Positions 9,386-45,490 of a stretch of DNA of 55,330 bases are shown here, one piece after another. The notes below the pieces were generated by a model. The model was not told where the DNA came from. It saw only the letters and a program-made list of their open reading frames with translations, and ran no database searches. The stretch lies in contig JACPSE010000148.1 of NCBI GenBank assembly GCA_016193465.1, forward strand, positions 1 to 55,330, given 5' to 3'. The translations under genes and the position numbers were made by a program. This DNA is from Deltaproteobacteria bacterium. GTDB taxonomy: Bacteria > Desulfobacterota > Binatia > UBA9968. Numbering within the stretch: position 1 is the stretch's first letter; every line of letters begins with the position of its first letter.

Positions 9386-10453
9386 CTATTTTTTAGGTAC
9401 CGGCAGACCAAACATCCGAAGGACCATTGCCCCTAACTCTCTACTTCTTGCTTCTCGCTCAGAATCTGGATGGTTAAACAGTTTTGCGCCGTGCTTCTGC
9501 ATCCACTCGCCGATAATGTTATTGGCATCATAAGGATCTGCCCGGCCTCGTAATTGGAGATAGATCGCTTGTACTTCCTCCGTTGCCAGCCAATAGAGAA
9601 ATACCTTGGCGGCGTTGGGATTGGGCGCATCCTTGAGAAAAAGCATGGGTTTCCCTTCGTCCACCGGGGCGACGTCGGAACCCATGGCTATGTTAACTAT
9701 CCCCTTAGGCAAATATCGACTGAAATACTGGTGGCTTTGTAGCGCCGGTATCGCCCAGGTCTCTCCCCGCACCAACATCTCCCAACAAGCCGCGCCACCG
9801 TTGCAGATCTTCGGTTTCTGTGGCACGAGAACTTCCCTGGCGTAACGGATGATCTCCTCATCGCTCCACTTCGGATACAGATGGGCATAGTGCTCATACT
9901 GGCGGATATTGAAAGCTATCTTGCCACCTGAAAGGCGGGGGTCTGATAGTTTGGCATAGGTCAGAGGCTGGAGATCCCGAGGCACCAGGTCAGTGCGGTA
10001 CATAAGGCCTTTTACCGCAGGAGGCTCCAAGGCCCCAGATAAAGACGGGTGCACAGCTCTTTTTTTCGTGTCTGGAAAGATTTCAAACCAATCCTTCCAG
10101 GGCTGAAGCATGCCGGCAATCTCCAAATCATAAAATGACGAACTAATAAGATCGGTCCCTCTTCGTCCCGAGGCAAATTCAGCCCTTAACCTTTCCAATC
10201 CCTCGCGCCCAGACATCATGGTTTGCCTTACCTTTATGGGTGGATAGGCCCTTCCGAAGGCCCCAAAGATAGCCTTTGTTTCCTTGGGCGGCCAACCAGC
10301 AATGATGTTCACTACCCCCTCTTTTTTAGCCGCTTCGATCAGCGCTTGTTGATTGGCCTCATGGGTAGCAGCATACGCAGGCATCGAAATGGCCAGCCCG
10401 GCTAGAATGGCGTCCACCAGAATAGCCGCGATCACCATTATCTTTTTCTTCAT
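9386..10453 (-). CDS. ABC solute-binding protein, group A copy 1
   Basis: Secreted COG1840-like binding protein, 355 residues: Sec signal MKKKIMVIAAILV..., cleavage probably after PAYA, then THEANQQALIEAAKKEGV. Group A hallmarks: AGMLQPWKDWFEIFPDT near residue 125, SDPRLSGGKIAFN, WSDEEIIRYA, APNPNAAKVFLYW, terminal LPVPKK. The ligand-facing region around residue 225 (NGGAACWEMLVRGETWA) differs between copies. ATG 10453 has GGAGG 7 nt upstream. It is the copy nearest the permease (9222). Four very close paralogs are at 10534, 13657, 14807 and 38691. Known relatives bind Fe3+ or organic acids; ligand here is unknown. Confidence 0.9.
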   Translation of the reverse strand: MKKKIMVIAAILVDAILAGLAISMPAYAATHEANQQALIEAAKKEGVVNIIAGWPPKETKAIFGAFGRAYPPIKVRQTMMSGREGLERLRAEFASGRRGTDLISSSFYDLEIAGMLQPWKDWFEIFPDTKKRAVHPSLSGALEPPAVKGLMYRTDLVPRDLQPLTYAKLSDPRLSGGKIAFNIRQYEHYAHLYPKWSDEEIIRYAREVLVPQKPKICNGGAACWEMLVRGETWAIPALQSHQYFSRYLPKGIVNIAMGSDVAPVDEGKPMLFLKDAPNPNAAKVFLYWLATEEVQAIYLQLRGRADPYDANNIIGEWMQKHGAKLFNHPDSEREARSRELGAMVLRMFGLPVPKK

Positions 10454-10533: not shown

Positions 10534-11601
10534 CTATATTTTAGGTACTGGCAGACCAAACATCCGAAGGACCATTGCCCCTAACTCTCTACTTCTTGCT
10601 GCTCGCTCAGAATCTGGATGGTCAAACAGTTTTGCGCCGTGTCTCTTCATCCACTCGCCGACAATGTTATTGGCATCATAAGGATTTGCCCGGCCGCGAA
10701 ATTTGTAATATATCTCTTGTACATCACCCGTTGTCGCCCAATGGAGAAACAGCTTGGCAGCGTTGGAATTGGGCGCATCCTTGAGAAAAAGGATGGGCTT
10801 TCCCTCGTCCACCGGCGCATAGTCCGAACCTATGGCTATATTAACTATCCCCTTAGGCAGAAATCGACTGAAATACTGGTGGGTTTGATTTATGGCTATA
10901 GCCCACATTTCTCCTTGCACCAACTTCTCCATACAAACCCCGCTACCATTGCAGAGCCTCGGTTTCTGTGGCACGAGAACTTCCTTGGCGTAACGGATGA
11001 TCTCCTCATCGCTCCACTTCGGATACAGATGGGCATAGTGGTCAAACTGGCGGATATTGAAAGCTATCTTGCCACCTGAAAGGCGGGGATCCGATAGTTT
11101 GGCATAGGTCAGAGGCTGGAGATCCCGAGGCACCAGGTCAGTACGGTACACAAGACCTTTTACTGAGGGAGGTTCCAAGGCTCCAGTTAAAGATGGATGG
11201 ACAGCCGTTTTTCTCGTGTCCGGAAAGATCTCGAACCAGTCCTTCCAGGGCTGAAGCATGCCTGCAACATGCAAATCATAAAATGACGTGCTGATAACGT
11301 CGGTTGCTCTTCGGCCAGAGGCGAATTCAGCCCTTAACCTTTCGAACCCCTCGCGCCCGGACATGTTGGTTTGCCTTATCTTTATAAACGGGTAGGCCCT
11401 TTTGAAGGCCTCAAATATGGCAGCTACTTCCACGGGCCGCCAACTAGCAATAATGTTCACTACACCCTCTTTTTTAGCCGCTTCGATCAGCCTTTGTTGC
11501 TTGATCTCATGGGTAGCAGCATAGGCTGGTATCGAAGTGGCCAGGCGGGCTAAAATAGCACCAACCAGAATAGCCGCGATCACAATTATCTTCTTCTTCA
11601 T
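10534..11601 (-). CDS. ABC solute-binding protein, group A copy 2
   Basis: Same family and layout as the copy at 9386 (355 residues from ATG 11601, which has GGAGGTG upstream; an upstream in-frame codon at 11637 belongs to a PrpD-derived leader). Signal peptide to about PAYA, then THEIKQQRLIEAAKKEGV. In the variable ligand region it reads CNGSGVCMEKLVQGEMWA and INQTHQYFSRFLPK, where copies 1, 4 and 5 have GGAACWEMLVRGE and LQSHQYF; this points to a changed ligand rather than redundancy. Its stop is 80 nt before the start of copy 1. Likely co-transcribed with the permease at 7501. Confidence 0.9.
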   Translation of the reverse strand: MKKKIIVIAAILVGAILARLATSIPAYAATHEIKQQRLIEAAKKEGVVNIIASWRPVEVAAIFEAFKRAYPFIKIRQTNMSGREGFERLRAEFASGRRATDVISTSFYDLHVAGMLQPWKDWFEIFPDTRKTAVHPSLTGALEPPSVKGLVYRTDLVPRDLQPLTYAKLSDPRLSGGKIAFNIRQFDHYAHLYPKWSDEEIIRYAKEVLVPQKPRLCNGSGVCMEKLVQGEMWAIAINQTHQYFSRFLPKGIVNIAIGSDYAPVDEGKPILFLKDAPNSNAAKLFLHWATTGDVQEIYYKFRGRANPYDANNIVGEWMKRHGAKLFDHPDSERAARSRELGAMVLRMFGLPVPKI

Positions 11602-11702
11602 TGCCCACCTCCTTGGTCTAAGCTTGGCGATCTGCATTTTTTTACCGCTACTTGAAGGAGGAATATGTGCATGAACCGGGCCAACTTCTCTGTGGCTCCC
11701 AT
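11598..11702 (-). pseudogene. PrpD gene 5' stub fused to binding-protein leader
   Basis: ATG at 11702 begins MGATEKLARFM, matching the N-terminus of the MmgE/PrpD protein at 37181-38545 (MGATEKLARFI), including the bases just before the ATG (TGATATGGGAGCC). After 11 codons it enters the group A leader sequence and the frame ends in TGA overlapping the binding-protein ATG (ATGA). It is a 34-residue relic, possibly still translated as a coupled leader peptide. It records an exchange between the 11.6-kb and 38.5-kb loci. Confidence 0.6.
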
Positions 11703-13656: not shown

Positions 13657-14724
13657 CTACATTTTAGGTACCGGCAGGCCAAGCATCCGAAGGACCACTG
13701 CCCCTAACTCTCTACTTCTTGCTTCTCGTTCACTGTCTGGATGGTCAAACATTTTTGCTCCGTGTTTCTTCATCCACGCTCCGACAACGTTATTGGCATC
13801 ATAAGGATCTGCCCGGCCTCGCAATTTGCCAAAGATCTCTTGTGCTCCGCCCGATGTCTGCCAATAGAGAAATACCTTAGCAGCGTTGGAATTGGGTGCA
13901 TTCTTGAGTAAAATAATGGGTTTCCCTTCGTCCACCGGGGCATAGTCGGGGGCTATGGCTATGTTAACTATCCCCCTAGGTAGATGCCGACTGAAGTATT
14001 GATGGCTTTGTAAGATTACCAGAGCCCACATTTCTCCTCGCACCAACATGTCCATGCAGGCCGTGGTACCATTACAGAGCTTTGGTTTCTGTGGCACGAG
14101 AACTTCCTTGGCGTAACGGATAATCTCCTCATCGCTCCACTTCGGATACAGATGGGCATAGTGGTCATACTGGCGGAAATTGAAAGCTATTCTGCCACCT
14201 GAAAGGCGGGGATCCGAGAGTTTAGCATAGGTCAAAGGCTGTAGATCCCGAGGCACCAGGTCAGTACGGTACATAAGACCTTTTACGGAGGGAGGTTCCA
14301 GAGCTGCAGATAAAGATCGGTGCACAGCTCTTTTTCTCGTGTCTGGAAAGATCTCAAACCAGTCCTTCCAGGGCTGAAGCATGCCGGCAGCCTCCACCTC
14401 ATAAAATGACGTGTTGATAAGATCCGTCGCTCTTCGGCCCGAGGCAAATTCAGCCCTTATCCTTTCGAATCCCTCGCGCCCAGACTGGATGGTTTGCCTT
14501 ATCTTTATAAACGGATAGGCCCTTTCGAAGGCCTCAAATATGGCCTTTCCTTCCACGGGTGGCCAAGTAGCAATGATGTTCAATACACCTTCTTCTTTAG
14601 CCGCTTCGATCAGCTTTTGTTGCTTGATCTCATGGCTACTAGCATAGGAAAGTCTCGAAGTTGGCAGCCAGGCTAAAATAGCGCCAACCAGAACAGCCGC
14701 AATCGCCATTATCTTTTTCTTCAT
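13657..14724 (-). CDS. ABC solute-binding protein, group A copy 3
   Basis: Group A member, 355 residues from ATG 14724 (GGAGG 7 nt upstream). A longer frame from 14832 merely reads through the end of the preceding gene in another register and was rejected. Signal peptide ends near RLSYASS; mature part starts HEIKQQKLIEAAKEEGV. The variable region reads CNGTTACMDMLVRGEMWA and VILQSHQYFSRHLPRG, and KNAPNSNAAKVFLYW near the C-terminus. The same WKDWFEIFPDT and LSGGRIAFN blocks as the others. First gene after the IS630 scrap; together with copy 4 it forms a tandem pair like copies 1 and 2. Confidence 0.9.
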   Translation of the reverse strand: MKKKIMAIAAVLVGAILAWLPTSRLSYASSHEIKQQKLIEAAKEEGVLNIIATWPPVEGKAIFEAFERAYPFIKIRQTIQSGREGFERIRAEFASGRRATDLINTSFYEVEAAGMLQPWKDWFEIFPDTRKRAVHRSLSAALEPPSVKGLMYRTDLVPRDLQPLTYAKLSDPRLSGGRIAFNFRQYDHYAHLYPKWSDEEIIRYAKEVLVPQKPKLCNGTTACMDMLVRGEMWALVILQSHQYFSRHLPRGIVNIAIAPDYAPVDEGKPIILLKNAPNSNAAKVFLYWQTSGGAQEIFGKLRGRADPYDANNVVGAWMKKHGAKMFDHPDSEREARSRELGAVVLRMLGLPVPKM

Positions 14725-14803
14725 TGCCGGCCTCCTTTGTCTCTGGCAATCTGCATTTTTTACTCTATTTGAAGGAAGATTATGTGCACCATGAACCCCG
14801 GCT
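14725..14803 (-). repeat. Conserved leader of group A binding-protein genes, copy 2
   Basis: Near-identical to 10454-10530, with a few substitutions (for example TGTGCACC for TCCGCACC on the plus strand). It holds the ribosome site of the gene ending at 14724. Confidence 0.7.
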
Positions 14804-14806
14804 CGC

Positions 14807-15874
14807 CTATTTTTTAGGTACCGGCAGACCAAGCATCCGGAGGACCATTGCCCCTAATTCTCTGCTCCTTCCTTCTCGTTCCGACTCTGGATGGTCGAAT
14901 AGTTTAGCACCGTGTTTCTTCACCCACGCGCCGACAATGTTATTGGGATCATAAGGATCCGCCCGGCCACGGAATTTGTAAAAGATCTCTTGTACTTCAC
15001 CCGTTGTTGCCCAATGGAGAAATACCTTAGCAGCGTTGGAATTGGGCGCGTCCTTGAGGAAAAGGATAGGCTTCCCCTCGTCCACAGGCGCATCGTCGGC
15101 GCCCATGGCTATATTGACTATCCCCTTAGGCAAATATCGGCCGAAATACTGATGGCTTTGTAATGCCGGTATCGCCCAGACTTCTCCCCGCACCAACATC
15201 TCCCAACAAGCCGCGCCACCATTGCAGAGCTTTGGCTTTTGTGGCACGAGAACTTCCTTGGCGTAACGGATGATCTCTTCATCGCTCCACTTCGGATACA
15301 GATGGGCATAGTGGTAATACTGGCGGAAATTGAAAGCTATCCTGCCACCTGAAAGGCGGGGATCCGATAGTTTGGCATAGGTCAAAGGCTGTAGATCCCG
15401 AGGCGCCAGGTCAGTACGGTACATAAGGCCCTTTACCGCGGAAGGTTCCAGAGATCCAGTTAAAGATGGGTGCACACCTGTTTTTCTCGTGTCCGGAAAG
15501 ATCTCAAACCAGTCCTTCCAGGGCTGAAGCATGCCGGCAACCTCCAGATCATAAAAGGACGCGTTGATAAGGTCCGTCGCTCTTCGGCCCGAGGCAAATT
15601 CAGCTCTTATCCTTTCGAATCCCTCCCGCCCGGACAGGATGGTTTGCCTTATCTTTATAAACGGATAGGCCTTTTTAAAGGCCTCAAAAATGGCATTTGC
15701 TTCCTTGGGCGGCCAGGTAGCAAGGATGTTCACTACGCCCTCTTTTTTTGCCGCTTCGATCAGCGCTTGCTGCTTGGCCTCATGGGAAGTGGCGTAAGCA
15801 GGCATAGGAATCGCTTGCAGGGCCCAAATGGCGCCGATCAAAATCCCCGTGACAAGAAGTACACTTTTCAACAT
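14807..15874 (-). CDS. ABC solute-binding protein, group A copy 4
   Basis: Group A member of 355 residues. The signal peptide (MLKSVLLVTGILIGAIWAL...) differs from the MKKKI type of the other copies while the mature part is highly similar (WKDWFEIFPDT, LSGGRIAFN, APNSNAAKVFLHW, LPVPKK), so the 5' end has diverged or been exchanged. The variable region matches copies 1 and 5 (CNGGAACWEMLVRGEVWA). ATG 15874 has AAAGGAGG upstream. First member of the array behind the ATPase gene at 16044, from which it is separated by a 50-codon frame. Confidence 0.9.
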   Translation of the reverse strand: MLKSVLLVTGILIGAIWALQAIPMPAYATSHEAKQQALIEAAKKEGVVNILATWPPKEANAIFEAFKKAYPFIKIRQTILSGREGFERIRAEFASGRRATDLINASFYDLEVAGMLQPWKDWFEIFPDTRKTGVHPSLTGSLEPSAVKGLMYRTDLAPRDLQPLTYAKLSDPRLSGGRIAFNFRQYYHYAHLYPKWSDEEIIRYAKEVLVPQKPKLCNGGAACWEMLVRGEVWAIPALQSHQYFGRYLPKGIVNIAMGADDAPVDEGKPILFLKDAPNSNAAKVFLHWATTGEVQEIFYKFRGRADPYDPNNIVGAWVKKHGAKLFDHPESEREGRSRELGAMVLRMLGLPVPKK

Positions 15875-18431: not shown

Positions 18432-19502
18432 TTAAACCTTTATTTCGCCATTTTCACAAACCACGATATTGTCGTCGACAATAACGGTCACCCTGGCAAT
18501 GATCCCTTCTAGCCTGAGAGTGCTGAAGACCGTTTTGCTCGGGTCTTCCGAAAAAAGGTAGCGATCCGGTCCTGTACCGATGCCGAAGTGCATTGAGCCG
18601 TACCTCTTTTTATCACTCCTCATGATCCCCGCACGGGGAGGGCACTTCTTGTTGGTACCCAAACCCATCTCACCGCCAACGGCATAGGTGTATTTATCCC
18701 CGTATCTCTCCAAGTACGCTTTTAGCTGCTGGGCTTCTATACCCCCGGTGATATCCACTACCCGACCGTCCTTAATGGTGACTTTGACCGGGTCCTTCCA
18801 GAGTCCAGAGGGATAATGCGCGGTCGTATCCCAGACTACCGTTCCATTGCCAGTGCCCGGGAGCGGCTCGACGTGAATCTCTCCGTAGGGCCAGGTTCCT
18901 CCACCTATACCGCCGGTCTTAGTATCCCGTTGAAATGGCATTTTGTTAGCCCTGTTGAAGTGGTAGTCTTTCGGGTAGCCCGATATATCGGCCGTATAAT
19001 CCGTCCCATACTCCGAACGCAGATGGATCTTCTTGCCTCGGTCGTAAATGGCCCCGATTCTCTTGTGCAGTTCCACCATTTCTTTGATGTCGTCCCACGA
19101 CACGGTGCCCCCGCCCTCGGTGAGAATCTCTACCGTGTTTTCGTCCATCAACCAAATCGGAATATGACCGGCCTTTCTGATCGAGCGCAAACCGGGCGTT
19201 CCACTATTGAGACAGGTCGTTGTCAAACCCGCCACCGCGTTGCAGGCCTTTGCCGCTTCTATGGCAGCGGGATGGGGATCGGCGCAGTGATAGGGGAGTT
19301 TGGGAAACATGCATAAGATCGGCGATCCCCCCTTCGAGTTAATGACCGCCATGAATGCCTGCCAAACAAGGGGATCCATGGCGTCATCGGTCATCACCAT
19401 TACCTTGTCCCCCGGCTGGATCTGCTGTAAAGGGACCTGCAGATACTTCACCAGGGGAATAATTTTCGTTGACGGCACACCGTATCTCTCAGCCATAACC
19501 AT
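18432..19502 (-). CDS. M29 aminopeptidase/NicX-like metalloenzyme, copy 1
   Basis: Protein of 356 residues in the fold family of M29 aminopeptidases and 2,5-dihydroxypyridine 5,6-dioxygenase NicX, which use a metal for peptide or ring cleavage. Seen: N-terminal domain (GDKVMVMTDD, residues 31-40); C-terminal candidates for metal ligands Glu208 (GEIHVEP), Glu278 (GGEMGLGTN) and His305 (MHFGIG). The final H-x-D pair expected near residue 330 is RLE (330-332), so the site is not canonical. ATG 19502 has GGAGGTG upstream; it starts 41 nt after the UbiD stop, the same arrangement as in two other pairs. No signal peptide. Function is inferred to be tied to the UbiD product. Confidence 0.8.
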   Translation of the reverse strand: MVMAERYGVPSTKIIPLVKYLQVPLQQIQPGDKVMVMTDDAMDPLVWQAFMAVINSKGGSPILCMFPKLPYHCADPHPAAIEAAKACNAVAGLTTTCLNSGTPGLRSIRKAGHIPIWLMDENTVEILTEGGGTVSWDDIKEMVELHKRIGAIYDRGKKIHLRSEYGTDYTADISGYPKDYHFNRANKMPFQRDTKTGGIGGGTWPYGEIHVEPLPGTGNGTVVWDTTAHYPSGLWKDPVKVTIKDGRVVDITGGIEAQQLKAYLERYGDKYTYAVGGEMGLGTNKKCPPRAGIMRSDKKRYGSMHFGIGTGPDRYLFSEDPSKTVFSTLRLEGIIARVTVIVDDNIVVCENGEIKV

Positions 19503-19543: not shown

Positions 19544-20959
19544 CTAACCATGCTGCCTAAGAACTCTGCTCCATTTTTCCGCTGTCTTGCTCAAAAGATC
19601 CTCACTAATATCCGTGGTGCGAGGAAACTTGTCCATCCAGTGATAAGGCCTACACGCATCTATGATAGCCGTCGAACTTGTATAGTTACCAATGTCCTTT
19701 TTCTCCTTGACCCTATAGGGATCCAGCCCGTCGCCCGAGATCCTACGGACGATGTCTAACGCCTGCGCGGGTTCGTACCGCGTGGCGACAGCCCAAAACA
19801 CCTTTCCGAGACTATAAGGATCAATATCCTCATCCACGATGATAACGAACCTCATGCTGCTGCCTGCCGAGCTTCCTAACGCCGCATGAGAGACCCGCTT
19901 TACATGACCAGGGTAAGGCTGCTTAATGGAAATGATTGTGAGACCCCAGGCATAGTGGTTGACGGCAACGATATTGGGAATGCCCAGCCCTTCCAACTCT
20001 TTCCAAATAAATGCGGCTTTGGACGACAAGACGCCACAGTTCGCTTCTAAAAATGGCGGGTTGCCTAGAATGACGGGGTCATTTCTGAAAAGCATGCCTT
20101 TGACCTTAAGGCGCGGCATCGACCGTTTTCCCTCCAGGTAATAACCCGACGCCTCGCCAAACGGCCCCTCGCTCTCCTGGCCTTGGGCCGGCGGCAACAA
20201 GTCGCCTTCCAAAACTACCTCGGATGTTGCCGGGATAAGCAGATCCGTGCACTCGCCTTTGGTCACCTCAACAGGCTCATTTCGTAACCAGCCCGCAAAA
20301 GCATACCCGGAAATTGGCCGGCGCAAATCCATCCCGGCGGCCACAAACAAAACCGGATCCTGGCCAAGAGAGATCGCCACCGGGCAAGGTCTTCCGCCGT
20401 CCCAGTATTTCTTCCAGATGCCATCCATCTCTAAGCCGGCATGAGGGGCCACGGTATTGTGATTGACCCATGTAAAAGGGAAGGAAGCCGCATGACAGTC
20501 CTTCGACTCCGGATCTCTCGTGATAACAAAAGTGCCGCACATGTAGGGACCCCCGTCCTGCTCATGCCACTTGGGCCAAGGAATTTTACCTAGATCAACC
20601 TCATCACCGAGCAGTATGTTCTCCTTTACCGGCGCGGCCTTCACCTCTTTGGGAGCAACGGGTTTGCACCCTTTTAGTCTTTCCTTCCAATATTTAACGG
20701 CATCTCTCTCACTGAGATCTTGGGCCACGCCAAAGACATGCCGTTCCCGAACCCTGTTAGAGAGCGCATTTGTCAAGATCCGATGGCCCTTCGGGAAGCC
20801 TTTGATCGAATCAAACAGCAACGCAGGACACTTTTCCCCTCGAGCCGCTATTTCCGTAACCGCGCCGATTTCCAGATCACAGCTAGCCCCCTCTATCACC
20901 TTGAGCTCGCCCATCTGTCGCAGGTTGTGAATAAACTCTCGCAGGTCTTTGAACGGCAT
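19544..20959 (-). CDS. UbiD-family decarboxylase paralog 1 (altered active site)
   Basis: UbiD enzymes (de)carboxylate aromatic or unsaturated acids with prenylated FMN. This 471-residue copy keeps EGPFGE (Glu264, Glu269, the family's catalytic glutamates) and Glu231 in EPVEV, but where the other three copies read N-x-G-S-Y-R it reads HAASFP (residues 156-161): the metal-ligand Asn is His156, the essential Arg is Pro161, and the SGHNG loop is LEMDG, so the His ligand is Met178. The residues are aligned without gaps to the copy at 35701. It may be a structural subunit, act on another chemistry, or be dying. ATG 20959 with AAGGA upstream. Pairs with the M29/NicX-like gene 41 nt downstream. Confidence 0.85.
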   Translation of the reverse strand: MPFKDLREFIHNLRQMGELKVIEGASCDLEIGAVTEIAARGEKCPALLFDSIKGFPKGHRILTNALSNRVRERHVFGVAQDLSERDAVKYWKERLKGCKPVAPKEVKAAPVKENILLGDEVDLGKIPWPKWHEQDGGPYMCGTFVITRDPESKDCHAASFPFTWVNHNTVAPHAGLEMDGIWKKYWDGGRPCPVAISLGQDPVLFVAAGMDLRRPISGYAFAGWLRNEPVEVTKGECTDLLIPATSEVVLEGDLLPPAQGQESEGPFGEASGYYLEGKRSMPRLKVKGMLFRNDPVILGNPPFLEANCGVLSSKAAFIWKELEGLGIPNIVAVNHYAWGLTIISIKQPYPGHVKRVSHAALGSSAGSSMRFVIIVDEDIDPYSLGKVFWAVATRYEPAQALDIVRRISGDGLDPYRVKEKKDIGNYTSSTAIIDACRPYHWMDKFPRTTDISEDLLSKTAEKWSRVLRQHG

Positions 20960-23392: not shown

Positions 23393-24457
23393 TCAAACTC
23401 TTATCTCTCCGTCTTCGCAAACAACAATATTGTCGTCGACCACAACTGTGACTCTATCGATAATGCCCTCGAGCCTCACGTTGCTAGCAACATACTTGCT
23501 TGGATCTTTTTCAAAGCGGAAGCGGTCGGCCCCATGGCCGATACCGAAGTGCATAGAGCCATACCTCTTTTTGTCGCTACGCATATTGCCGGTGCGAGGC
23601 GCGCATCTCGGGTTAGTACCCAGTCCCATTTCTCCACCCACTGCATAGCAGTTTTCATCGCCGTATCTCTTCAGGTAGTCCTTTATGAGCTTTGCCTCAC
23701 TGCCGCCGCTGATATCCACAACGCGCCCATCTTTGATGGCCAGCTTCACGGGATCCCTCCAGAGCCCAGGCGGATAGTGAGCTGTCGTATCCCAAACAAC
23801 GGTCCCATTTGCGGTGCCAGGGACTGGCTCCACGTGGACCTCTCCAAATGTCCAATTGCCTCCGCCAAGACGTCCGGTCTTTGGATCCCGGTCAAAAGGC
23901 ATCTTGCTCCGCCTCTGGACGTGATAATCCTTAGGGTAGCCCGATATGTCCGCTGTCAGGTCGGTCCCATAGTCGGAGAGGATGCGAATTTTCTTGGCCC
24001 GGTCGTAAATTTCACCGATCCTTGTTTGAACCGCCACCATTTCCTCAACATCTTTTAGTGTTGCCGAGCCGCCTCCCTCCGTGAGAATTTCCACCGTGTT
24101 TTCTTCCATGAGCCAAACAGGAGCCTGATTCTTTAGCGATCGAAGTCCTGGGGTTCCGCTGTTCAGGCACGTCGTTGTCAGCCCCGCCACGGCATCTGAA
24201 ACCTTGGCCGCTTCTATCGCGGCCGCAGGGGGATCCGCGTTATGGTGCTGAAGCTTAGGGAAGAGACATAAGGTGGGCTGTGCGCCCCTTTCGTTGATAG
24301 CGGCCATCACGCCCTGCCAAACCAGAGGGTCCATGGCATCATCTGTCCATACCACTATTTTGTCGCCAGGCTGGACATTCCGGAATGGTACCTGCAGGCT
24401 TTTCATCAGAGGGATGATTTTCGTGCTGGGTATTCCGTATCGTTCTATCATGACCAT
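23393..24457 (-). CDS. M29 aminopeptidase/NicX-like metalloenzyme, copy 2
   Basis: Second family member, 354 residues. Start set at ATG 24457 (MVMIERYG, as in the other copies; GGAGG 9 nt upstream) rather than the TTG/ATG a few codons earlier. Retains GEVHVEP, GGEMGLGTN and MHFGIG; the expected H-x-D near the C-terminus is RLE as in copy 1. It starts 26 nt after UbiD 2, in the same strand and order as the other pairs. Followed 53 nt on by the small hydroxylase subunit. No signal peptide; cytoplasmic. Confidence 0.8.
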   Translation of the reverse strand: MVMIERYGIPSTKIIPLMKSLQVPFRNVQPGDKIVVWTDDAMDPLVWQGVMAAINERGAQPTLCLFPKLQHHNADPPAAAIEAAKVSDAVAGLTTTCLNSGTPGLRSLKNQAPVWLMEENTVEILTEGGGSATLKDVEEMVAVQTRIGEIYDRAKKIRILSDYGTDLTADISGYPKDYHVQRRSKMPFDRDPKTGRLGGGNWTFGEVHVEPVPGTANGTVVWDTTAHYPPGLWRDPVKLAIKDGRVVDISGGSEAKLIKDYLKRYGDENCYAVGGEMGLGTNPRCAPRTGNMRSDKKRYGSMHFGIGHGADRFRFEKDPSKYVASNVRLEGIIDRVTVVVDDNIVVCEDGEIRV

Positions 24458-24482
24458 CAGCATCAACCTCCTCGTATGTGTT

Positions 24483-25907
24483 CTATGACTTTAGTATGTG
24501 CCCCCATTTGGCTTCGTAGATTTTCCTTGTCTCCTCGCTTATCCTCGTAGTACGGGGAAAGTCTTGTTTCCAATGAAAGGGCCTGCAGGCGTTGAAAACA
24601 GCAAGCGAGCTCGTGTAGTCACCGGTGGCCCGTTTCTCCGGAGGCAAGGCCGGATCAATGGCGTAGCTCCATGTCCCCTTGCAGACACTTATAGAGCTTT
24701 CCGGATCGCACCTTGTCGCCAGGGCCCAGAAGACCTCCTCGATGTTGTGTGGGTCAATGTCCTCATCGACAACGATCACCATCTTAACATGGTACCCACC
24801 CGATCCCCCCCCACAACTGCCCAGGGCCGCTCGCATCGCGTGGCCGGGATAGGATTGTTCCAAGGATATAATATTTCGCGAATATTGATGTTTCACTCCC
24901 TTAATTCCGGGAACCCCCAATCCCTCCAATTCTTCCCTAACATCAATACTCCTCGAATAAAGGACGTTCTGGCCGCTCCCCTCTACAATCAAGGGGGGAT
25001 CCCCTATGACAATAGGATCATTGCGGTAAAGAATCGCATGGATCTTGGTCACAGGGGACGGACGCGCCCCGCCCCCATAGTAGCCTGAGGCCTCTCCAAA
25101 GGGCCCTTCGATTTCTGAGCCCCCATCAGGCGGAAGCATCTCCCCCTCTAAGATAATTTCCGCGGTAGCCGGGATGGGAAGGTCCGTATAGAAACCCTTT
25201 GTAACCTCCACAGGAGCGCCTCTTAGCCACCCCATATAGTCATATTCGGCAGCACCCCATGGGAGACTCGTGCCTGCAATCATAAAGATGGCCGGCTCCT
25301 GCCCAAGAGAGATCGCCACCGGACAGCTCTTTCCCCTGCTCCAGTATCTCTTTCTTATGACATCACCGTTATGCCCGGACCCGATGTGAACTACTATGCG
25401 ATTCCGATCAATGAGCTTGAACCGATAGGATCCCAAATTAATATATCCTGATTCGGGTTCCCGCATGATCACTGAGGTCCCACACACATATCTTCCCCCG
25501 TCATGCTCATGCCACCGAACCCAGGGCATCTTGAACAAATCAACATCATCACCCGAAATAATATTCTCCTTGACCGGCCCCGTTGCCACCTCAACTGGAG
25601 GCACGGGCTCGTACTGCTTCATCCTTTCTCTCCATAGCAGGACAGCCTCATCGTCACTTAGATGTTCGTCCACCCCGTAGATCAGTCGACCCGCCATGCG
25701 GTTGTGGCGGACCGTAGTCAGGACGCGAAAACCCGGCGGATAGCCTTTAATGTGGTTAAACAGAAGACACGGAGGTTTCTTTGACGTCAAAGACGAAAGA
25801 TAGGTGATCGCGCCGATCTCGAGATCCCAGTCGGCCCCCTCAATGTCCACCAGCTCCCCGCGCTCTCTCATGCATACAATAAATTCCCTCAGGTCGTTGA
25901 ACTTCAT
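24483..25907 (-). CDS. UbiD-family decarboxylase paralog 2 (canonical site)
   Basis: 474 residues. Full set of family residues is visible: Asn157 and Arg162 in INLGSYR, His179 in GSGHNG, Glu234 in APVEV, Glu267 and Glu272 in EGPFGE. Its ATG at 25907 overlaps the stop of the hydroxylase FAD subunit by four bases (ATGA), with GGAGGT 5 nt upstream inside that gene, so hydroxylase and decarboxylase are translated together. This is the most likely active decarboxylase of the set. It needs prenyl-FMN from UbiX, which is not encoded in the window. Contains a few more cysteines and a diverged N-terminus compared with copies 3 and 4. Confidence 0.92.
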   Translation of the reverse strand: MKFNDLREFIVCMRERGELVDIEGADWDLEIGAITYLSSLTSKKPPCLLFNHIKGYPPGFRVLTTVRHNRMAGRLIYGVDEHLSDDEAVLLWRERMKQYEPVPPVEVATGPVKENIISGDDVDLFKMPWVRWHEHDGGRYVCGTSVIMREPESGYINLGSYRFKLIDRNRIVVHIGSGHNGDVIRKRYWSRGKSCPVAISLGQEPAIFMIAGTSLPWGAAEYDYMGWLRGAPVEVTKGFYTDLPIPATAEIILEGEMLPPDGGSEIEGPFGEASGYYGGGARPSPVTKIHAILYRNDPIVIGDPPLIVEGSGQNVLYSRSIDVREELEGLGVPGIKGVKHQYSRNIISLEQSYPGHAMRAALGSCGGGSGGYHVKMVIVVDEDIDPHNIEEVFWALATRCDPESSISVCKGTWSYAIDPALPPEKRATGDYTSSLAVFNACRPFHWKQDFPRTTRISEETRKIYEAKWGHILKS

Positions 25908-34522: not shown

Positions 34523-34646
34523 GTTCCACCTCCCGTCTAACTCGAAACGCAACTGGAACCTGCCTTCACTGACTTGCTTGCCAAACCAGGATCCTCCCCC
34601 AGATGAGAACGGTCAGACCTTGATCTCACCCTTCTCGCAGACGGTT
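34368..34646 (-). repeat. 279-nt duplicated block, copy 2
   Basis: Gapless counterpart of 18137-18415. It runs from the NMT1-type stub through the leader into the intact tail of the M29/NicX-like gene (34613). Substitutions are scattered (about 10% by eye), so the duplication is not the most recent event. Confidence 0.75.
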
Positions 34647-35671
34647 ATATTGTCATCAACAACCACTGTCACTCGGGCAATGATTCCTTCCAATCGCAGT
34701 GTGCTATTGACTTCACCGCGGTCGGCTCCATGGCCGATGCCAAAGTGCATTGCTCCGTAACGTTTCTTGTCGTTGCGCATCATCCCCATGGCTGGCCAGC
34801 ATTTTCTGTTAGTGCCGACCGCAATTTCTCCGCCCACCCGCCATGAATTCTCGTCACCGTAGGTTTCCAGGTACCAGCGCACCTGCTCGGCCTCCGCGCC
34901 GCCCTGGATAGCCACGACGCGGCCGTCCTTAATGGTTAGTGCGACTGGCTCCCGCCAAAGACCGGAAGGGAAATGGGCTGTGGTATCCCAGACAAGCGTC
35001 CCATTGGCGCTGCCAGGGAGCGGCTCTACGTGTACCTCTCCGAACGGCCAAGTACCGCCACCCAGTTTGCCGGTTTTCGGATCGCGCTCGAACGGAAGCT
35101 TCCCCCAGCGCGTGGCCTGGTGGCCGGGAGGCATACCCGTAATATCGGCGAAGAGATCGCTCCCGGACTCTGAGAGAACCCGGACTCTCTTTCCCCGGTC
35201 ATAGATCTCGCCGATCCGCCTTTGCAGCTCGCAGATCTCCTTAAGATCTTCGAGCGTAGCTCTACCCCCGCCGTCCGTGAGGATATCCACGGTCAACTCC
35301 TCCATTAACCAAACAGGCGTTTGCCCCTTTCCACCGCCTTCTGATCTGATAGACCGAAATCCAGGCGTGCCGCTGTTCAATGCCGTTGTCGTCAATGCGA
35401 CGACCACGTCAGCTCGCTTGGCAGCCTCAATGGCAAGGGGCGGAGGATCTGAGCAGTGGTAAGCGAGCCTGGGAAACAGGCACAGCACTGGCTCACCATC
35501 CCTCTCGTTGATGGCAGCCATGGCGGATTGCCAAACCATAGGATCCATGGCGTCGTCAGTCAGCACCAGCAGCCGATCCCCTTTCTGTATGTTTCGAAAC
35601 GGAACCTGCCAGCTCTTCATCAACCCAATAATTTTCGTCGACGGCACGCCATATCTCTCAATCATGACCAC
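34613..35671 (-). CDS. M29 aminopeptidase/NicX-like metalloenzyme, copy 3
   Basis: 352 residues; GTG start at 35671 (GGAGG 6-7 nt upstream; the ATG two codons on is possible). Keeps GEVHVEP and MHFGIG, but the GGEMGLGTN motif is GGEIAVGTN here, and RLE replaces H-x-D as in the others. Slightly shorter after MHFGIGHGADR (a deletion of about ten residues against copies 1 and 2). Starts 30 nt after UbiD 3. Its tail belongs to the block duplicated at 18137-18415. Same cautions on function as for copy 1. Confidence 0.8.
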   Translation of the reverse strand: MVMIERYGVPSTKIIGLMKSWQVPFRNIQKGDRLLVLTDDAMDPMVWQSAMAAINERDGEPVLCLFPRLAYHCSDPPPLAIEAAKRADVVVALTTTALNSGTPGFRSIRSEGGGKGQTPVWLMEELTVDILTDGGGRATLEDLKEICELQRRIGEIYDRGKRVRVLSESGSDLFADITGMPPGHQATRWGKLPFERDPKTGKLGGGTWPFGEVHVEPLPGSANGTLVWDTTAHFPSGLWREPVALTIKDGRVVAIQGGAEAEQVRWYLETYGDENSWRVGGEIAVGTNRKCWPAMGMMRNDKKRYGAMHFGIGHGADRGEVNSTLRLEGIIARVTVVVDDNITVCEKGEIKV

Positions 35672-35700: not shown

Positions 35701-37116
35701 CTATCCGCGTCTAAGAACCTCTCCCCATTTCTCTTCCGTCTTCTTAAGGAGCTCTTCGCTGATTTTTGTTGTAGGGGGAAATTTATCCATCCAGTGATAG
35801 GGACGACACGCATCAATGATCGCCACCGAACTCGTATAGTTCCCTACGCTCTTCTTTTCCTCCGGCAACCTGGGGTCAATCTTGTAGCTCCAGGTCCGAC
35901 GGCTAATGTCCAGCGAGGTCTCCGGGTCGCACCTTGTCGCCACCGCCCAAAACACCTCGTCCAGGTTATACGGATCGATGTCTTCATCAACGACAATGAT
36001 GAATCTGGCGTGATAGCCCGCTGTTCCGCCCAGGGCCGCGTGCGCAACCCGCATTGCGTGGCCAGGATAGGCTTGCTTAATGGAAATGATGGTGCGGCAC
36101 CCCGAATAGTTGACCCCCATGATATTTTCCAGTCCCAAGGTCTCAAGCTCATTCCAAACCAAGAGCGCCCTGGAATATAGGATCGTCCTGTCGCCTCCCA
36201 GGAAAGGGGGATTGCCCAAGATAATCGGCTTGTTTCTGAAAAGCATGCTCCTGATCTTCGTCACGGGCGCGGGCCGCGCGCCGCCGCCGTAATAACCAGA
36301 AGCCTCCCCAAAAGGTCCTTCAATCTCTTCCCCTTGGTCAGGCGGCAACATGTCACCCTCCAACACGACTTCGGCGGTCGCAGGAATGGGCAGATCCGTA
36401 TATTCGCCCCTGGCCACCTCCACCGGCTCCCCGCGTAGCCACCCTGCGAACCCGTATTCCGAACTGCCCCAAGGCAAATTCGTACCCGCTGCCAGGAGCA
36501 GGGCCGGATCCTGGCCTAAAGAGATCGCCACCGGACAGGACTTTCCCTTCTCCCAATATTTCTTGCGGATGACGTCCCCGTTATGTCCCGAGCCGATGTG
36601 GGCCACGATGGTATTCTTGTTGATGAACATGAAGCGGTAAGAACCAATGTTAATGTATCCTGAGTCTGGTTCTCTGGTGACGACGGACGTCGCGCACATG
36701 TATCGGCCGCCATCTCGCTCATGCCACTTGGGCCAAGGAATCCTGCCTAAATCAACTTCATCACCGCGCAAGACGTTTTCCTTCACCGGAGCCAGACCGA
36801 CCTCTTTTGGATCCACCGGCTCATACTGTTTCAACCTGTTCTTAAAAAAGATGACTGCCTCGCGATCGCTTAGCTCCTGGGCAACGCCGAAGATGAGCCG
36901 TTCCCTGACTGTATCCGAGATAATGTTAGTCAAAACCCTATTGCCCTCGGGAAATCCCTTAATCGAATCAAACAGCACCGCAGGGTGACCCTCCAGATCC
37001 GTGGCCAGTTCTGTTATGGCGCCAATCTCCAAATCGCAGCTTGCCCCTTCGACCACCTTGATCTGACCCAGTTTTTGCAAAGTCGCAATAAACTCTCTTA
37101 GGTCATAGAACTTCAT
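35701..37116 (-). CDS. UbiD-family decarboxylase paralog 3 (canonical site)
   Basis: 471 residues. Asn156 and Arg161 in INIGSYR, His178 in GSGHNG, Glu233 in EPVEV, Glu266 and Glu271 in EGPFGE are all present; these correspond to the metal, prenyl-FMN and catalytic residues of the family. Closest in the window to copy 4. ATG 37116 with GGAG upstream. Followed by an M29/NicX-like gene 30 nt on and preceded by MmgE/PrpD 64 nt upstream. Likely active once supplied with prenyl-FMN. Substrate unknown. Confidence 0.92.
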   Translation of the reverse strand: MKFYDLREFIATLQKLGQIKVVEGASCDLEIGAITELATDLEGHPAVLFDSIKGFPEGNRVLTNIISDTVRERLIFGVAQELSDREAVIFFKNRLKQYEPVDPKEVGLAPVKENVLRGDEVDLGRIPWPKWHERDGGRYMCATSVVTREPDSGYINIGSYRFMFINKNTIVAHIGSGHNGDVIRKKYWEKGKSCPVAISLGQDPALLLAAGTNLPWGSSEYGFAGWLRGEPVEVARGEYTDLPIPATAEVVLEGDMLPPDQGEEIEGPFGEASGYYGGGARPAPVTKIRSMLFRNKPIILGNPPFLGGDRTILYSRALLVWNELETLGLENIMGVNYSGCRTIISIKQAYPGHAMRVAHAALGGTAGYHARFIIVVDEDIDPYNLDEVFWAVATRCDPETSLDISRRTWSYKIDPRLPEEKKSVGNYTSSVAIIDACRPYHWMDKFPPTTKISEELLKKTEEKWGEVLRRG

Positions 37117-38690: not shown

Positions 38691-39755
38691 CTATTTTTTA
38701 GGTACCGGCAGGCCAAGCATCCGGAGAACGATTGCTCCTAACTCTCTACTCCTTGCTTCTCGTTCACTGTCTGGATGGTCAAATAGTTTTGCGCCGTGTC
38801 TCTTCATCCACGCGCCGACAACATTATTGGCGTCATAAGGATCTGCCCGGCCTCGTAATTTGGCAAAGATCTCCTGTGCTCCGTCCGTTGTCGCCCAATG
38901 GAGATATACCTTAGCAGCGTTGGGATTGGGCGCATCCTTAAGAAAAAGGATGGGTCTTCCTTCGTCCACCGGCGCATCGTCGGAACCTATGGCTATATTG
39001 ACTATCCCCTTAGGAAAATATCGACCGAAATACTGGTGGCTTTGTAGTGACGGTATAGCCCAGACTTCTCCCCGCACCAACATCTCCCAACAAGCCGCGC
39101 CACCACTGCAGAGCTTCGGTTTCTGGGGCACGAGAACTTCCTTGGCGTAACGGATGATCTCCTCATCGCTCCACCTCGGATACAGATGGGCATAGTGGTC
39201 ATACTGGCGGAAATTGAAAGCTATCCTGCCACCTGAAAGGCGGGGATCCGATAGTTTAGCATACGTTAAAGGTTGGAGATCCTGAGGGACCAGGTCAGTG
39301 CGGTACATAAGACCTTGTACTGAGGGAGGTTCCATAGATCCAGATAAAGATGGGTGCACACCTCTTTTTCTCGTGTCTGGAAAGATCTCGAACCAGTCCT
39401 TCCAGGGCTGAAGCATGCCTGCAGCCTCCACCTCATAAAATGACGTATTGATAAGATCCGTCGCTCTTCGTCCCGAGGCAAATTCAGCCCTTATCCTTTC
39501 GAATCCCTCGCGCCCAGACAGGCGGGTATGCCTCATCTTTATAAAAGGATAGGCCCTTTCGAAGGCCCCAAATACGGCCTTTGCTTCCGCGGGCTGGTAA
39601 CTAGCATTGATGTTCACTACACCCTCTTTTTTAGCCGCTTCGATCAGCTTCTGTTGCTTGATCTCATGGGTACTAGCATAGGAAGGTCTCGAAGTTGCCA
39701 GCCAGGCTGAAATAGCGCCAACCAGAATACCAACGATCACAATTATCTTCTTCAT
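38691..39755 (-). CDS. ABC solute-binding protein, group A copy 5
   Basis: 354 residues, group A, but located 23 kb from the main array. MKKIIVIVGILVGAISAW signal, THEIKQQKLIEAAKKEGV, WKDWFEIFPDT, LSGGRIAFN, APNPNAAKVYLHW, LPVPKK. Variable region CSGGAACWEMLVRGEVWA as in copies 1 and 4. ATG 39755 overlaps the ThDP gene stop by 4 nt, so it is translation-coupled to that enzyme. Followed by MmgE/PrpD. This gene order (ThDP enzyme, binding protein, PrpD) mirrors the 11-13 kb area, where a PrpD stub and a ThDP enzyme flank a group A gene. Confidence 0.9.
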   Translation of the reverse strand: MKKIIVIVGILVGAISAWLATSRPSYASTHEIKQQKLIEAAKKEGVVNINASYQPAEAKAVFGAFERAYPFIKMRHTRLSGREGFERIRAEFASGRRATDLINTSFYEVEAAGMLQPWKDWFEIFPDTRKRGVHPSLSGSMEPPSVQGLMYRTDLVPQDLQPLTYAKLSDPRLSGGRIAFNFRQYDHYAHLYPRWSDEEIIRYAKEVLVPQKPKLCSGGAACWEMLVRGEVWAIPSLQSHQYFGRYFPKGIVNIAIGSDDAPVDEGRPILFLKDAPNPNAAKVYLHWATTDGAQEIFAKLRGRADPYDANNVVGAWMKRHGAKLFDHPDSEREARSRELGAIVLRMLGLPVPKK

Positions 39756-42856: not shown

Positions 42857-43894
42857 TTATTTGGTCACTGGAAGGCCCAATGCGCGAATATATTCGGCTG
42901 ACATCTCACCGGCCTTTGCCGCGCATTCAGGATCGCAAAAAAGAACCTTATTGCCCGCTGCCAACTTGGCATTAAAGGTCCCCTTGACCCAGGGAAAACC
43001 TTTATACTCCACTTTATCCAAAAGACGCTGGCCTTCCTCGCTGGCAAACCACCCGACTAATAGCTGAGCGGCATGCGACCGAGGCGAGCCCTTGCGTATA
43101 AATGCAGCCCACGCGGCTTCCATCAGCAACTCTCCCGGGACAACAACCTTAAGATTTTCCGTGCCCTTGTCGATAAGATCTTGGGCGCTATAAGGCTGCA
43201 CGCTACAGTACAGCGAATAAGCTCCAGCCGCTAAAAGCTGCATCGTTTCCGTTTGCCCCCGGATCAATTTCACATCGTTGGCTACCATCTTCTTCACCCA
43301 GCCTAAAAACCACTCCCTCTTATGCCAGTGAAGAGCCAGCAGCTTATGGCGCGGATCAAGAACTACTTTCCCTTTGAATTCCGGACGCGTACAATCATCC
43401 CACGTCTTCGGCACCAGATCAGGCGGGACCAGCTTCGGGTTATAGGCGATGGCGCGGGAATTCCCGGTCAAGTTGATCGCCCAACCACTGGGGTCGTATT
43501 GTCTCTTATCGATGTCCGGCCAAACCTTCAAATAGTCAAACGGCGGCTGCTGAAATACCCCGGCATCCAAAAACTGCTGCTGCGCTTCACGATTTGGGGC
43601 CAACACGTCTGCACCGATCGCTCGACCAGACTGCAACTCGATCAAAGTCCGCTGCTGCACTCCTGTATCCACCCAGCGCATGTATTTGGTCTTTATGCCA
43701 AATCTTTTGGAAAAAAAACCGAGGATCTCAGCGACGGACTTTTCATCGCTAGGCGCCCAAAATTCCACCTGCCCTTCGGATTGAGCTTTCTTCACTAGCT
43801 CTCTATAAAGAGCGATCTCTGCCGCCGCTGTCTCCAACGGGTAGAGGAGAATTATCAAAGATACCACGCCGATTGCTCGAACCTTCAGCTTCAT
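42857..43894 (-). CDS. ABC solute-binding protein, group B copy 4
   Basis: 345 residues. Signal peptide MKLKVRAIGVVSLIILLYPLE... to about TAAAE. Marks of group B: KKAQSEGQVEFWAP, QQRTLIELQSGRAIGADVL, SWDDCTRP-type TWDDCTRPEFKGKV, LLALHWHKREWFLGWVKKM, CDPEC, YIRALGLPVTK. Pocket region reads EAAWAAFIRKGSPRS. ATG 43894 with AGGAGG 5-6 nt upstream. Follows UbiD 4 by 106 nt. Together with the permease at 45491 it may form a transporter, but no ATPase is in this section. Confidence 0.9.
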   Translation of the reverse strand: MKLKVRAIGVVSLIILLYPLETAAAEIALYRELVKKAQSEGQVEFWAPSDEKSVAEILGFFSKRFGIKTKYMRWVDTGVQQRTLIELQSGRAIGADVLAPNREAQQQFLDAGVFQQPPFDYLKVWPDIDKRQYDPSGWAINLTGNSRAIAYNPKLVPPDLVPKTWDDCTRPEFKGKVVLDPRHKLLALHWHKREWFLGWVKKMVANDVKLIRGQTETMQLLAAGAYSLYCSVQPYSAQDLIDKGTENLKVVVPGELLMEAAWAAFIRKGSPRSHAAQLLVGWFASEEGQRLLDKVEYKGFPWVKGTFNAKLAAGNKVLFCDPECAAKAGEMSAEYIRALGLPVTK

Positions 43895-44000: not shown

Positions 44001-45416
44001 CTAACCACGCCTAAGCATTTCCCCCCATTCCTTTTCCGTCTTTTTAAAGAGCTCTTCACTGATTTTTGTCGTGGGAGGAAATTTATCCATCCAGTGATAA
44101 GGCCGGCAGGCATCAATAATCGCCACCGAGCCGGTTAGATTCCCCGCGTCCTTTTTATCCGGGGGCAACCTGGGATCGATCTTGTAGCTCCAGATTCTGC
44201 GACACACATCAAGAGAGGTCTCCGGATCACATCTTGTTGCCAACGCCCAAAAGACTTCTTCCAGATTGAAGGGATCGATGTCATCGTCAACCACAATGAC
44301 AAACCTCCCATGATATCCAGCAGTGCCCCCCAAGACCGCATGAGCCGCTCTCATGGCGTGACCCGGATAGGCTTGTTTTATGGAGATAATAGCCATTCCC
44401 CACGAATAGTTGACCCCCACAACATTGGGAATCCCCAAAGTGGCCAGCTCATTCCAAACTGAAATGCCCCGAGATGTTAAAACACCCCGGCTGGCTCCGA
44501 GAAAAGGCGGCACCCCCAAAACTATGGGGTCACTTCTCAAGAGCATGCTTTTGATAATCATCTTGGGAGCGGGCCTCGCCCCGCCACCGTAGTAGCCGGA
44601 AAACTCGCCGAAGGGACCTTCAATCTCCATGCCTTCTTCCGGGGGCAACATATCTCCCTCCAGCACCACCTCCGCCGTCGCTGGGACAGGAAGACCCGTG
44701 TACTCCCCCTTGGTTACCTGCACCGGGCACTGGCGCACCCAGCCCGCGTATCCATACTCCGATATGCCCCAGGGCAAATTCGCGCTAGCGGCTACAAGAA
44801 CGGCAGGCTCTTGCCCCAGAGAAACCGCCGCAGGACAGGCTTCGCCTTTGGACCAATACCTTTTTCGAATAACGTCGCCGTGGTGCCCAGAGCCAATATG
44901 CACGACAACGGTGTTTTTGTTCACTAACATGAAACGATAAGATCCTACGTTGACATATCCCGTGTCAGGATCTTTCGTCACTACAGAGGTAGCGCACATG
45001 TACTTCCCACCGTCCCGCTCGTGCCAGCGGGGCCAGGGGATCCTGAAAAGATCCACCTCGCCATTTATCAGGACATTTGCCTTCACAGGAGCTGCGCCAG
45101 CCTCAACCGGCGCGATAGGATTAAACTCCTTCATCTTTTCCTTCCAATAGTACATCGCCTCACGGTCGCCAAGCTCCATGGGGACCCCAAAGATGAAGCG
45201 CTCCCTGACCCTATTGTTCATGAAGTTAGTAAGGACCCGGTAACCTTTCGGGAATCCTTTGATGGAGTCGAAAAGAACTGCCGGGCACTCCTTGAGGGAG
45301 GCGGCCAATTCAGTAATCGCCCCTATTTCCAGCTCGCAGTCTGCCCCCTCAATTCTCTTCAGCTCCCCTTTCTCTTCGATAACCCTAACGAACTCTCTCA
45401 AATCTTCGAACTTCAT
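44001..45416 (-). CDS. UbiD-family decarboxylase paralog 4 (one ligand changed)
   Basis: 471 residues from ATG 45416 (MKFEDLREF as in the other copies; an earlier in-frame codon at 45455 adds 13 unrelated residues). Asn156 and Arg161 in VNVGSYR and His178 in GSGHHG are kept, as are Glu266 and Glu271 in EGPFGE, but the position of Glu233 (EPVEV in the others) is Gln233 in CPVQV; that glutamate is a metal ligand in the family. Activity may therefore be altered. Unlike the other three it has no M29/NicX-like partner; a binding protein gene follows instead. Downstream of permease 3. Confidence 0.88.
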   Translation of the reverse strand: MKFEDLREFVRVIEEKGELKRIEGADCELEIGAITELAASLKECPAVLFDSIKGFPKGYRVLTNFMNNRVRERFIFGVPMELGDREAMYYWKEKMKEFNPIAPVEAGAAPVKANVLINGEVDLFRIPWPRWHERDGGKYMCATSVVTKDPDTGYVNVGSYRFMLVNKNTVVVHIGSGHHGDVIRKRYWSKGEACPAAVSLGQEPAVLVAASANLPWGISEYGYAGWVRQCPVQVTKGEYTGLPVPATAEVVLEGDMLPPEEGMEIEGPFGEFSGYYGGGARPAPKMIIKSMLLRSDPIVLGVPPFLGASRGVLTSRGISVWNELATLGIPNVVGVNYSWGMAIISIKQAYPGHAMRAAHAVLGGTAGYHGRFVIVVDDDIDPFNLEEVFWALATRCDPETSLDVCRRIWSYKIDPRLPPDKKDAGNLTGSVAIIDACRPYHWMDKFPPTTKISEELFKKTEKEWGEMLRRG

Positions 45417-45490
45417 CTCTCCCCCTTCTTCTGAATGTTGCGATAATTCCCCCATCCAATTGTTTGGCTTCTTTCTCCCGTATGCCGGCC

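Follow-up and report, generated by a model that had tools for sequence, protein, structure and literature searches.

The prenyl-FMN (prFMN)-dependent (de)carboxylases of the UbiD family, among them Fdc1, UbiD and VdcC, are described through a small set of residues at the metal and cofactor site. In Fdc1, H191, E233, N168 and K391 are reported to be involved in Mn2+ binding, and R173, E277 and E282 are described as cofactor-associated (PMC4947166). For the R173A variant of Fdc1, very low activity and impaired cofactor maturation are reported, and for R173K no detectable activity (PMC5818171). The UbiD protein PA0254 is described as holding prFMN through Mn2+ and K+, with activity peaking when both are supplied, and as carrying a C-terminal dimerisation domain (PMC7976604). 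Accessory and multiple subunits are also on record: the small non-UbiD subunit VdcD is reported as an allosteric activator of VdcC (PMC8379154), and for the naphthalene carboxylase of N47 a complex of ~750 kDa is proposed, with four UbiD-like subunits encoded in its cluster (PMC12016498). The locus analysed here resembles such multi-UbiD enzymes, phenylphosphate carboxylase included, in that several UbiD paralogs are encoded side by side, which makes mixed complexes conceivable; it differs in that the present system is known solely from its genes, and in that the paralog of interest, U1, scores far below the cut-offs of the phenyl_P_alpha and phenyl_P_beta models.

The window, the whole analysed stretch of 55,330 nucleotides, is one contig (C97) of a 4.5-Mb draft genome in 238 contigs that is listed as 100% complete. 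The following genes bear on the argument:

19544..20959, minus strand: U1, a UbiD homolog of 471 amino acids (open reading frame; Pfam UbiD_N, UbiD and UbiD_C over cut-off; alignments)
24483..25907, minus strand: U2, a canonical UbiD paralog on a long branch, used as a control for U1
35701..37116, minus strand: U3, a canonical UbiD and the nearest relative of U1 (64%)
44001..45455, minus strand: U4, a canonical UbiD paralog without an adjacent M29-like gene
18432..19502, minus strand: M1, the M29/NicX-like partner gene of U1
23393..24466, minus strand: M2, the M29/NicX-like partner gene of U2
34613..35671, minus strand: M3, the M29/NicX-like partner gene of U3
39752-41485: thiamine-pyrophosphate enzyme (run against the family libraries)
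42857-43894: solute-binding protein (run against the family libraries)

The family libraries were run on the UbiD and M genes, on the last two genes listed and on 52347-53411; all other genes were named by eye from their translations. By this reading the cluster also encodes CoxL/CoxM/CoxS molybdenum-hydroxylase-like proteins, parts of an iron-type ABC transporter, solute-binding proteins, a metallo-beta-lactamase-like hydrolase, thiamine-pyrophosphate enzymes, an MmgE/PrpD-like protein and an IclR-like regulator. Five of the solute-binding protein genes (9386-10453, 10534-11637, 13657-14832, 14807-15874 and 38691-39755) look nearly alike by eye, and four of them lie close together. The product of 52347-53411 is a beta-propeller protein assigned to the virginiamycin B lyase family by PF24684 (191.5 bits; cut-off 50); with both the Vgb(A) and the Vgb(B) model its score stays below the cut-off.

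U1 shares 64% identity with U3, 58% with U4 and 49% with U2, and 7pda is the solved chain closest to it. The first-pass annotation had described it as full length, and the reading frame is indeed intact over 471 codons; its product scores above the Pfam cut-off in each of the three UbiD domains (PF20695, PF01977 and PF20696: 39.0, 156.3 and 81.6 bits against 24.3, 23.3 and 24.2). The prFMN-binding domain PF01977 scores lower in U1 than in U2, U3 and U4 (194.3, 204.4 and 194.9 bits), whereas the scores of UbiD_C (75.6, 80.3 and 83.5 bits in U2-U4) and UbiD_N (29.7, 34.8 and 43.7 bits in U2-U4) are not lower in U1. With 234.8 bits, U1 falls short of the NCBIfam TIGR00148 cut-off of 244.85 by only 10 bits; U2-U4 exceed it (245.4, 264.3 and 267.5 bits).

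A fragment spanning residues 166-286, identical to solved Fdc1 chains and numbered as they are, served to map U1 onto Aspergillus niger Fdc1; of the four metal ligands named above, N168, H191 and E233 are covered, and K391 lies outside the mapping. The sites concerned are:

20492..20494, minus strand: codon of His156, at the position of the Fdc1 metal ligand Asn168 (alignment)
20477..20479, minus strand: codon of Pro161, at the position of Fdc1 Arg173 (alignment)
20426..20434, minus strand: Leu176-Glu177-Met178, with a two-residue deletion at the metal-ligand His of U2-U4 (Fdc1 His191; alignments)
20306..20308, minus strand: codon of Gly218, at the position of the Fdc1 metal ligand Glu233 (alignment)
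20153..20170, minus strand: EGPFGE, with the triad acids Glu264 and Glu269 kept (Fdc1 Glu277 and Glu282; alignment)

U1 is thus like the described UbiD (de)carboxylases in its three-domain, full-length homology and in EGPFGE, and unlike them in that the counterparts of N168, H191, E233 and Arg173 are all replaced or deleted; both glutamates of the Glu-Arg-Glu/Asp network remain, but the network is incomplete, with Pro161 in place of the arginine. The first-pass annotation, which had placed U1 against U3 without gaps, was right in substance: His156 for Asn, Pro161 for the key Arg and the retained EGPFGE are borne out. The gapless alignment itself was mistaken, as U1 is two residues shorter exactly where the His stands, and the reported replacement of this His by Met178 is correct as a loss and not as a clean substitution; a six-base gap in the DNA alignment spans the His codon of U3, and depending on the alignment Leu176, Glu177, Met178 or the gap stands opposite, none of them a His. 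The fourth loss, Glu233 to Gly218, had gone unnoticed; this site is Glu in U2-U4 and in all 32 rows from relatives. As the third metal ligand, the Glu of a KGE motif was also considered and dropped, since the Fdc1 fragment leads to the Glu of the SSEYGF stretch. The missing motif is not encoded in either of the other two frames, so that a compensating pair of frameshifts is rejected as the cause. New histidines appear at positions 156 and 167, near the conserved His173 in the alignment.

Changes at these sites exceed what the general divergence of U1 would lead one to expect. U1 is changed at all four, compared with 31 of 147 otherwise invariant columns overall (hypergeometric P = 0.0017, a generous value because three of the four sites had been chosen by the first-pass annotation); when the two retained glutamates are added, four of six sites are changed (P = 0.018). 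A tree built from U1-U4 with seven relatives and five outgroups places U1 as the sister of U3 (support 96/94) on a branch 3.5-fold longer (0.52 vs. 0.15). U2 (0.48) and the relative R15a (0.63), which have branches of like length and served as controls, retain all six residues intact. Columns that are invariant in the rest of the clade are changed in 31 of 147 cases in U1, 15 of 131 in U2, 21 of 137 in R15a and 4 of 120 in U3. Within the prFMN-binding domain the counts are 17 of 74 for U1, 2 of 59 for U2 and 5 of 62 for R15a (U1 against both controls, 17/74 vs. 7/121, P = 0.0006); outside it they are 14 of 73, 13 of 72 and 16 of 75 (14/73 vs. 29/147, P = 1.0). The excess loss of constraint in U1 is confined to the prFMN-binding domain, as measured against these two control proteins. 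Along the chain, the changes are not significantly clustered (1346 of 20000 shuffles were as dense as the densest run of 20 invariant columns), and the contrast between domains therefore rests on the two controls; the densest run, 352-409, falls in the C-terminal domain, where 12 of 40 otherwise invariant columns are altered, so that the dimer surface of U1 may be altered as well.

The 471 codons of U1 contain no stops, against about 14 expected under neutrality along the whole branch, and between U1 and U3 the synonymous sites are saturated (pS 0.76) at a pN of 0.22; the same saturation made dN/dS incalculable for seven of nine pairs. The missing stops and the gap between pN and pS argue for constraint over most of the U1 branch, though not necessarily since the loss of the active site. 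The GC3 of U1 (0.60) is like that of U2 and U4. AlphaFold2 models built from a six-row alignment were poor (mean pLDDT 45 for U1 and 60 for U3).

The pairing of U1 with an M29/NicX-like gene, as previously described, is real: M1, M2 and M3 start 41, 16 and 29 nt 3' of U1, U2 and U3, respectively. For M1, neither Pfam nor NCBIfam gave a family match; the Pfam M29 scores of M2 and M3, 22.2 and 21.8 bits, lie below the cut-off of 27. The M family resembles NicX, the 2,5-dihydroxypyridine 5,6-dioxygenase (7cn3), by remote similarity, detected with M3 (E 1.8e-7) and with a profile of the M family (E 7.8e-8). It differs at the iron ligands of NicX, which we take to be His265, His318 and Asp320; the corresponding columns hold Glu282, Arg326 and Glu328 (M3 numbering), invariant in nine of nine rows including M1. 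M1 keeps all five family-invariant residues that were checked (Glu, Glu, His, Arg and Glu), and the chemistry of the family, as read from these residues, need not equal that of NicX. Since M1 lacks a family match, M2 and M3 remain below the cut-off and the NicX ligands are absent, the pairing says little about the chemistry of U1. Otherwise invariant columns are changed in 11 of 126 cases in M1, 6 of 121 in M2 and 5 of 120 in M3. In the M tree, M1 is the sister of M2 (100/99) and not of M3, whereas U1 joins U3, and the U/M pairs therefore do not stem from one simple block duplication.

Relatives of the same family carry a U3-like UbiD in a recurrent cluster (L092-L098) in the order OsmC-like protein, UbiD, M29-like protein, CoxL, CoxS, metallo-beta-lactamase-like hydrolase, NMT1-type solute-binding protein and CoxM; one or more parts are absent in several of these loci, and L094, L095 and L098 gave no M29-like match. 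The company of a molybdenum hydroxylase and a NicX-fold protein suggests that the UbiD may take part in breaking down a hydroxylated or N-heteroaromatic acid. One UbiD of the relative G015 (L092:11162-12567) seems frameshifted near residue 200 and retains its Asn, Arg and His.

The first-pass annotation had proposed a homolog search for a clade that conserves the changes of U1. None emerged: no ortholog of U1 was found among the best first-look candidates per genome in a sample of 57 other genomes of relatives, nor among those of the remaining 34 genomes of the order or the remaining 147 of the class (the searches overlap), and a pattern scan of the genome contig collection, from which records near the genome's own may be omitted, gave only two matches at 35%. 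The finding accordingly concerns one gene in one genome. The seven nearest relatives outside the genome (L022-L028, 45-60% identical) retain N, R and H, and further matches near 43% come from other families of the class (G090, G096). All 32 rows from relatives, three neighbouring UbiDs among them, have N168, R173, E233, E277 and E282 intact, although these rows are not a random sample, because most were fetched for their good match to U1.

The same sites were surveyed among the 61 UbiD (PF01977) matches of the genome itself. The six sites could be placed in 56 of 59 unique UbiDs (two short fragments, four duplicate rows and three incomplete rows were left out); the residue counts omit His191, since its column shifts between alignments and reads differently for U2 and U3. 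Arg173 is kept in 52 of the 56, Asn168 in 51, Glu233 in 49 and both acids (as E or D) in 53. Among these 56, U1 alone loses Arg, Asn168 and Glu233 without conservative replacement; a protein encoded on contig C141 has Lys, Asp and Asp at these positions.

Our preferred reading, to which we assign a probability of about 0.58, is that U1 is a retained UbiD pseudo-decarboxylase. U1 would be a duplicate of its neighbour U3, or of an ancestor of U3, in which the Mn/prFMN-phosphate site and the catalytic arginine have disappeared. Lacking three metal ligands and this arginine, U1 is not expected to bind or use prFMN in the standard manner, and both the usual cofactor binding and decarboxylation would be out of its reach; judging from the residue losses, decarboxylase activity should be absent. 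Outside the prFMN domain, the C-terminal dimerisation domain included, the divergence of U1 does not exceed that of active paralogs of equal age. It would persist as a full-length protein and may serve as the non-catalytic partner of U3, U4 or U2, a plausible fate for such a paralog in a dimeric family. Of the two options offered by the first-pass annotation, a pseudoenzyme or a subunit with different chemistry, the former is the better supported, by the loss of the mapped metal/prFMN-phosphate site and of the catalytic arginine, by the restriction of excess change to the cofactor domain and by the missing stops; nothing positive was found for the latter. UbiDs are commonly annotated as decarboxylases by homology, and U1 is a full-length, well-aligned member of the family that is nevertheless predicted to be unfit for the known chemistry. 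Should it function as a subunit, U1 would represent a UbiD pseudoenzyme whose role is regulatory or structural; no such protein was found in the titles and opening lines of the abstracts surveyed.

Two other readings rank below the retained pseudoenzyme. The stronger holds that U1 is a redundant copy in slow decay, whose catalysis is no longer needed and which has not yet acquired a stop; this is unlikely, though it retains some weight. U2-U4 in the same cluster would make U1 redundant, its branch is accelerated, M1 also evolves somewhat faster than M2 and M3, and the occurrence of U1 in a single genome agrees with a transient copy; decay fits poorly with a surplus loss of constraint that is limited to one domain, with zero stops where neutrality over the whole branch predicts about 14, with a GC3 that resembles those of U2 and U4, and with an M1 that still has every family-invariant residue checked. 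Less probable again is a re-tooled enzyme, in which the emptied pocket would accommodate another metal or cofactor for a different chemistry. The two new histidines (156 and 167) near His173 and the two retained triad glutamates could be read in this way, and the order contains further UbiD clades that are conserved and carry changes at catalytic or metal-site positions; a proline in the place of the catalytic arginine speaks against it, as does the result that the genomes of the order and class yielded no U1 clade conserving the new His set. Sequencing or assembly error in this metagenome-assembled contig, for which one might cite the draft state in 238 contigs and the frameshifted appearance of the UbiD in G015, is very improbable, given that the affected sites are separate, the six-base deletion is in frame, the other frames do not restore the motif and the 31 changed columns are spread along U1.

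The retained pseudoenzyme would belong to a lineage that is rich in UbiD proteins. All 35 genomes of the order have between 16 and at least 64 UbiD matches (in G010, the best 64 of 126 candidates were scored), and the genomes sampled from other orders of the class (23 genomes, G035-G057) have 0-8 first-look candidates, a rough comparison as U1 was the query. The genome under study has a single UbiX match over cut-off (C32:6880-7425, 239.7 bits) beside its 61 UbiD matches. Beyond U1, three of the 56 UbiDs lack Arg173, and each belongs to a conserved clade; a fourth protein, one of the three incomplete rows outside this count, lacks the metal ligands:

C141:1537-2910 (L102), minus strand: Asp-Lys-His-Asp clade (N168D, R173K, E233D, E277Q; 12 rows read)
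C132:3656-5257 (L101), plus strand: clade with Ser for Arg173 and Asp at Glu282 (12 rows read)
C132:6740-8245 (L101), plus strand: clade with Thr for Arg173, His for Glu277 and Asp for Glu282
L061:492-1910 (C38:14991-16409 of the genome), minus strand: HmfF-like UbiD without the three metal ligands

Clade residues were read in the stated rows and not in all matching genomes. The residues of the C141 clade occur in 12 of 12 rows, except for one Asn in place of Asp, and matches of at least 70% are present in 29 of 34 genomes, its own included. In the first C132 clade, all 12 rows carry Ser, and the position of Glu277 is taken by Gly, Ser or Glu (matches of at least 64% in 16 of 34 genomes, its own included); in the second, Thr is found in all six covering rows and His and Asp at Glu277/Glu282 in seven of seven (matches of at least 73% in 7 of 34 genomes, its own included). 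The second C132 gene lies 1.5 kb downstream of the first, with a gene for a cupin protein between them. All three clades keep Asn/Asp, His and Glu/Asp at the mapped metal sites, the reverse of the condition in U1; at their His position one row shows Asp and another Gly, which the alignment may have caused.

The HmfF-like protein L061 resembles U1 more closely in its losses. Aligned with solved HmfF chains (6h6x, E 3.2e-98), it shows Ser in place of Asn, no His and Lys in place of Glu, and it keeps the Arg and EGPFGE; its orthologs L140 and L141 (76% and 72% identity) occur in two of 34 other genomes of the order, and the pattern of Ser, no His and Lys is common to all three rows. L061 and its orthologs are thus like U1 in having lost all three metal ligands while retaining EGPFGE, and unlike U1 in keeping the catalytic Arg, in belonging to the HmfF side of the family and in having orthologs in two further genomes; by analogy, the persistence of a UbiD without a metal site across genera lends some support to U1 being kept. 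A more far-reaching version of the preferred reading, in which U1 would be a dedicated non-catalytic subunit that tunes or stabilises active U3/U4, as part of a repeated departure of the UbiD fold from standard decarboxylation in this order, is speculative and rather unlikely as a whole. New prFMN chemistry, or prFMN-free functions of UbiD proteins, could nonetheless reasonably be sought first in such a UbiD-rich lineage with altered clades. As a further observation within the genome, five other UbiDs (L071, L074, L075, L078 and L079) have a His at the metal-ligand position of Glu233.
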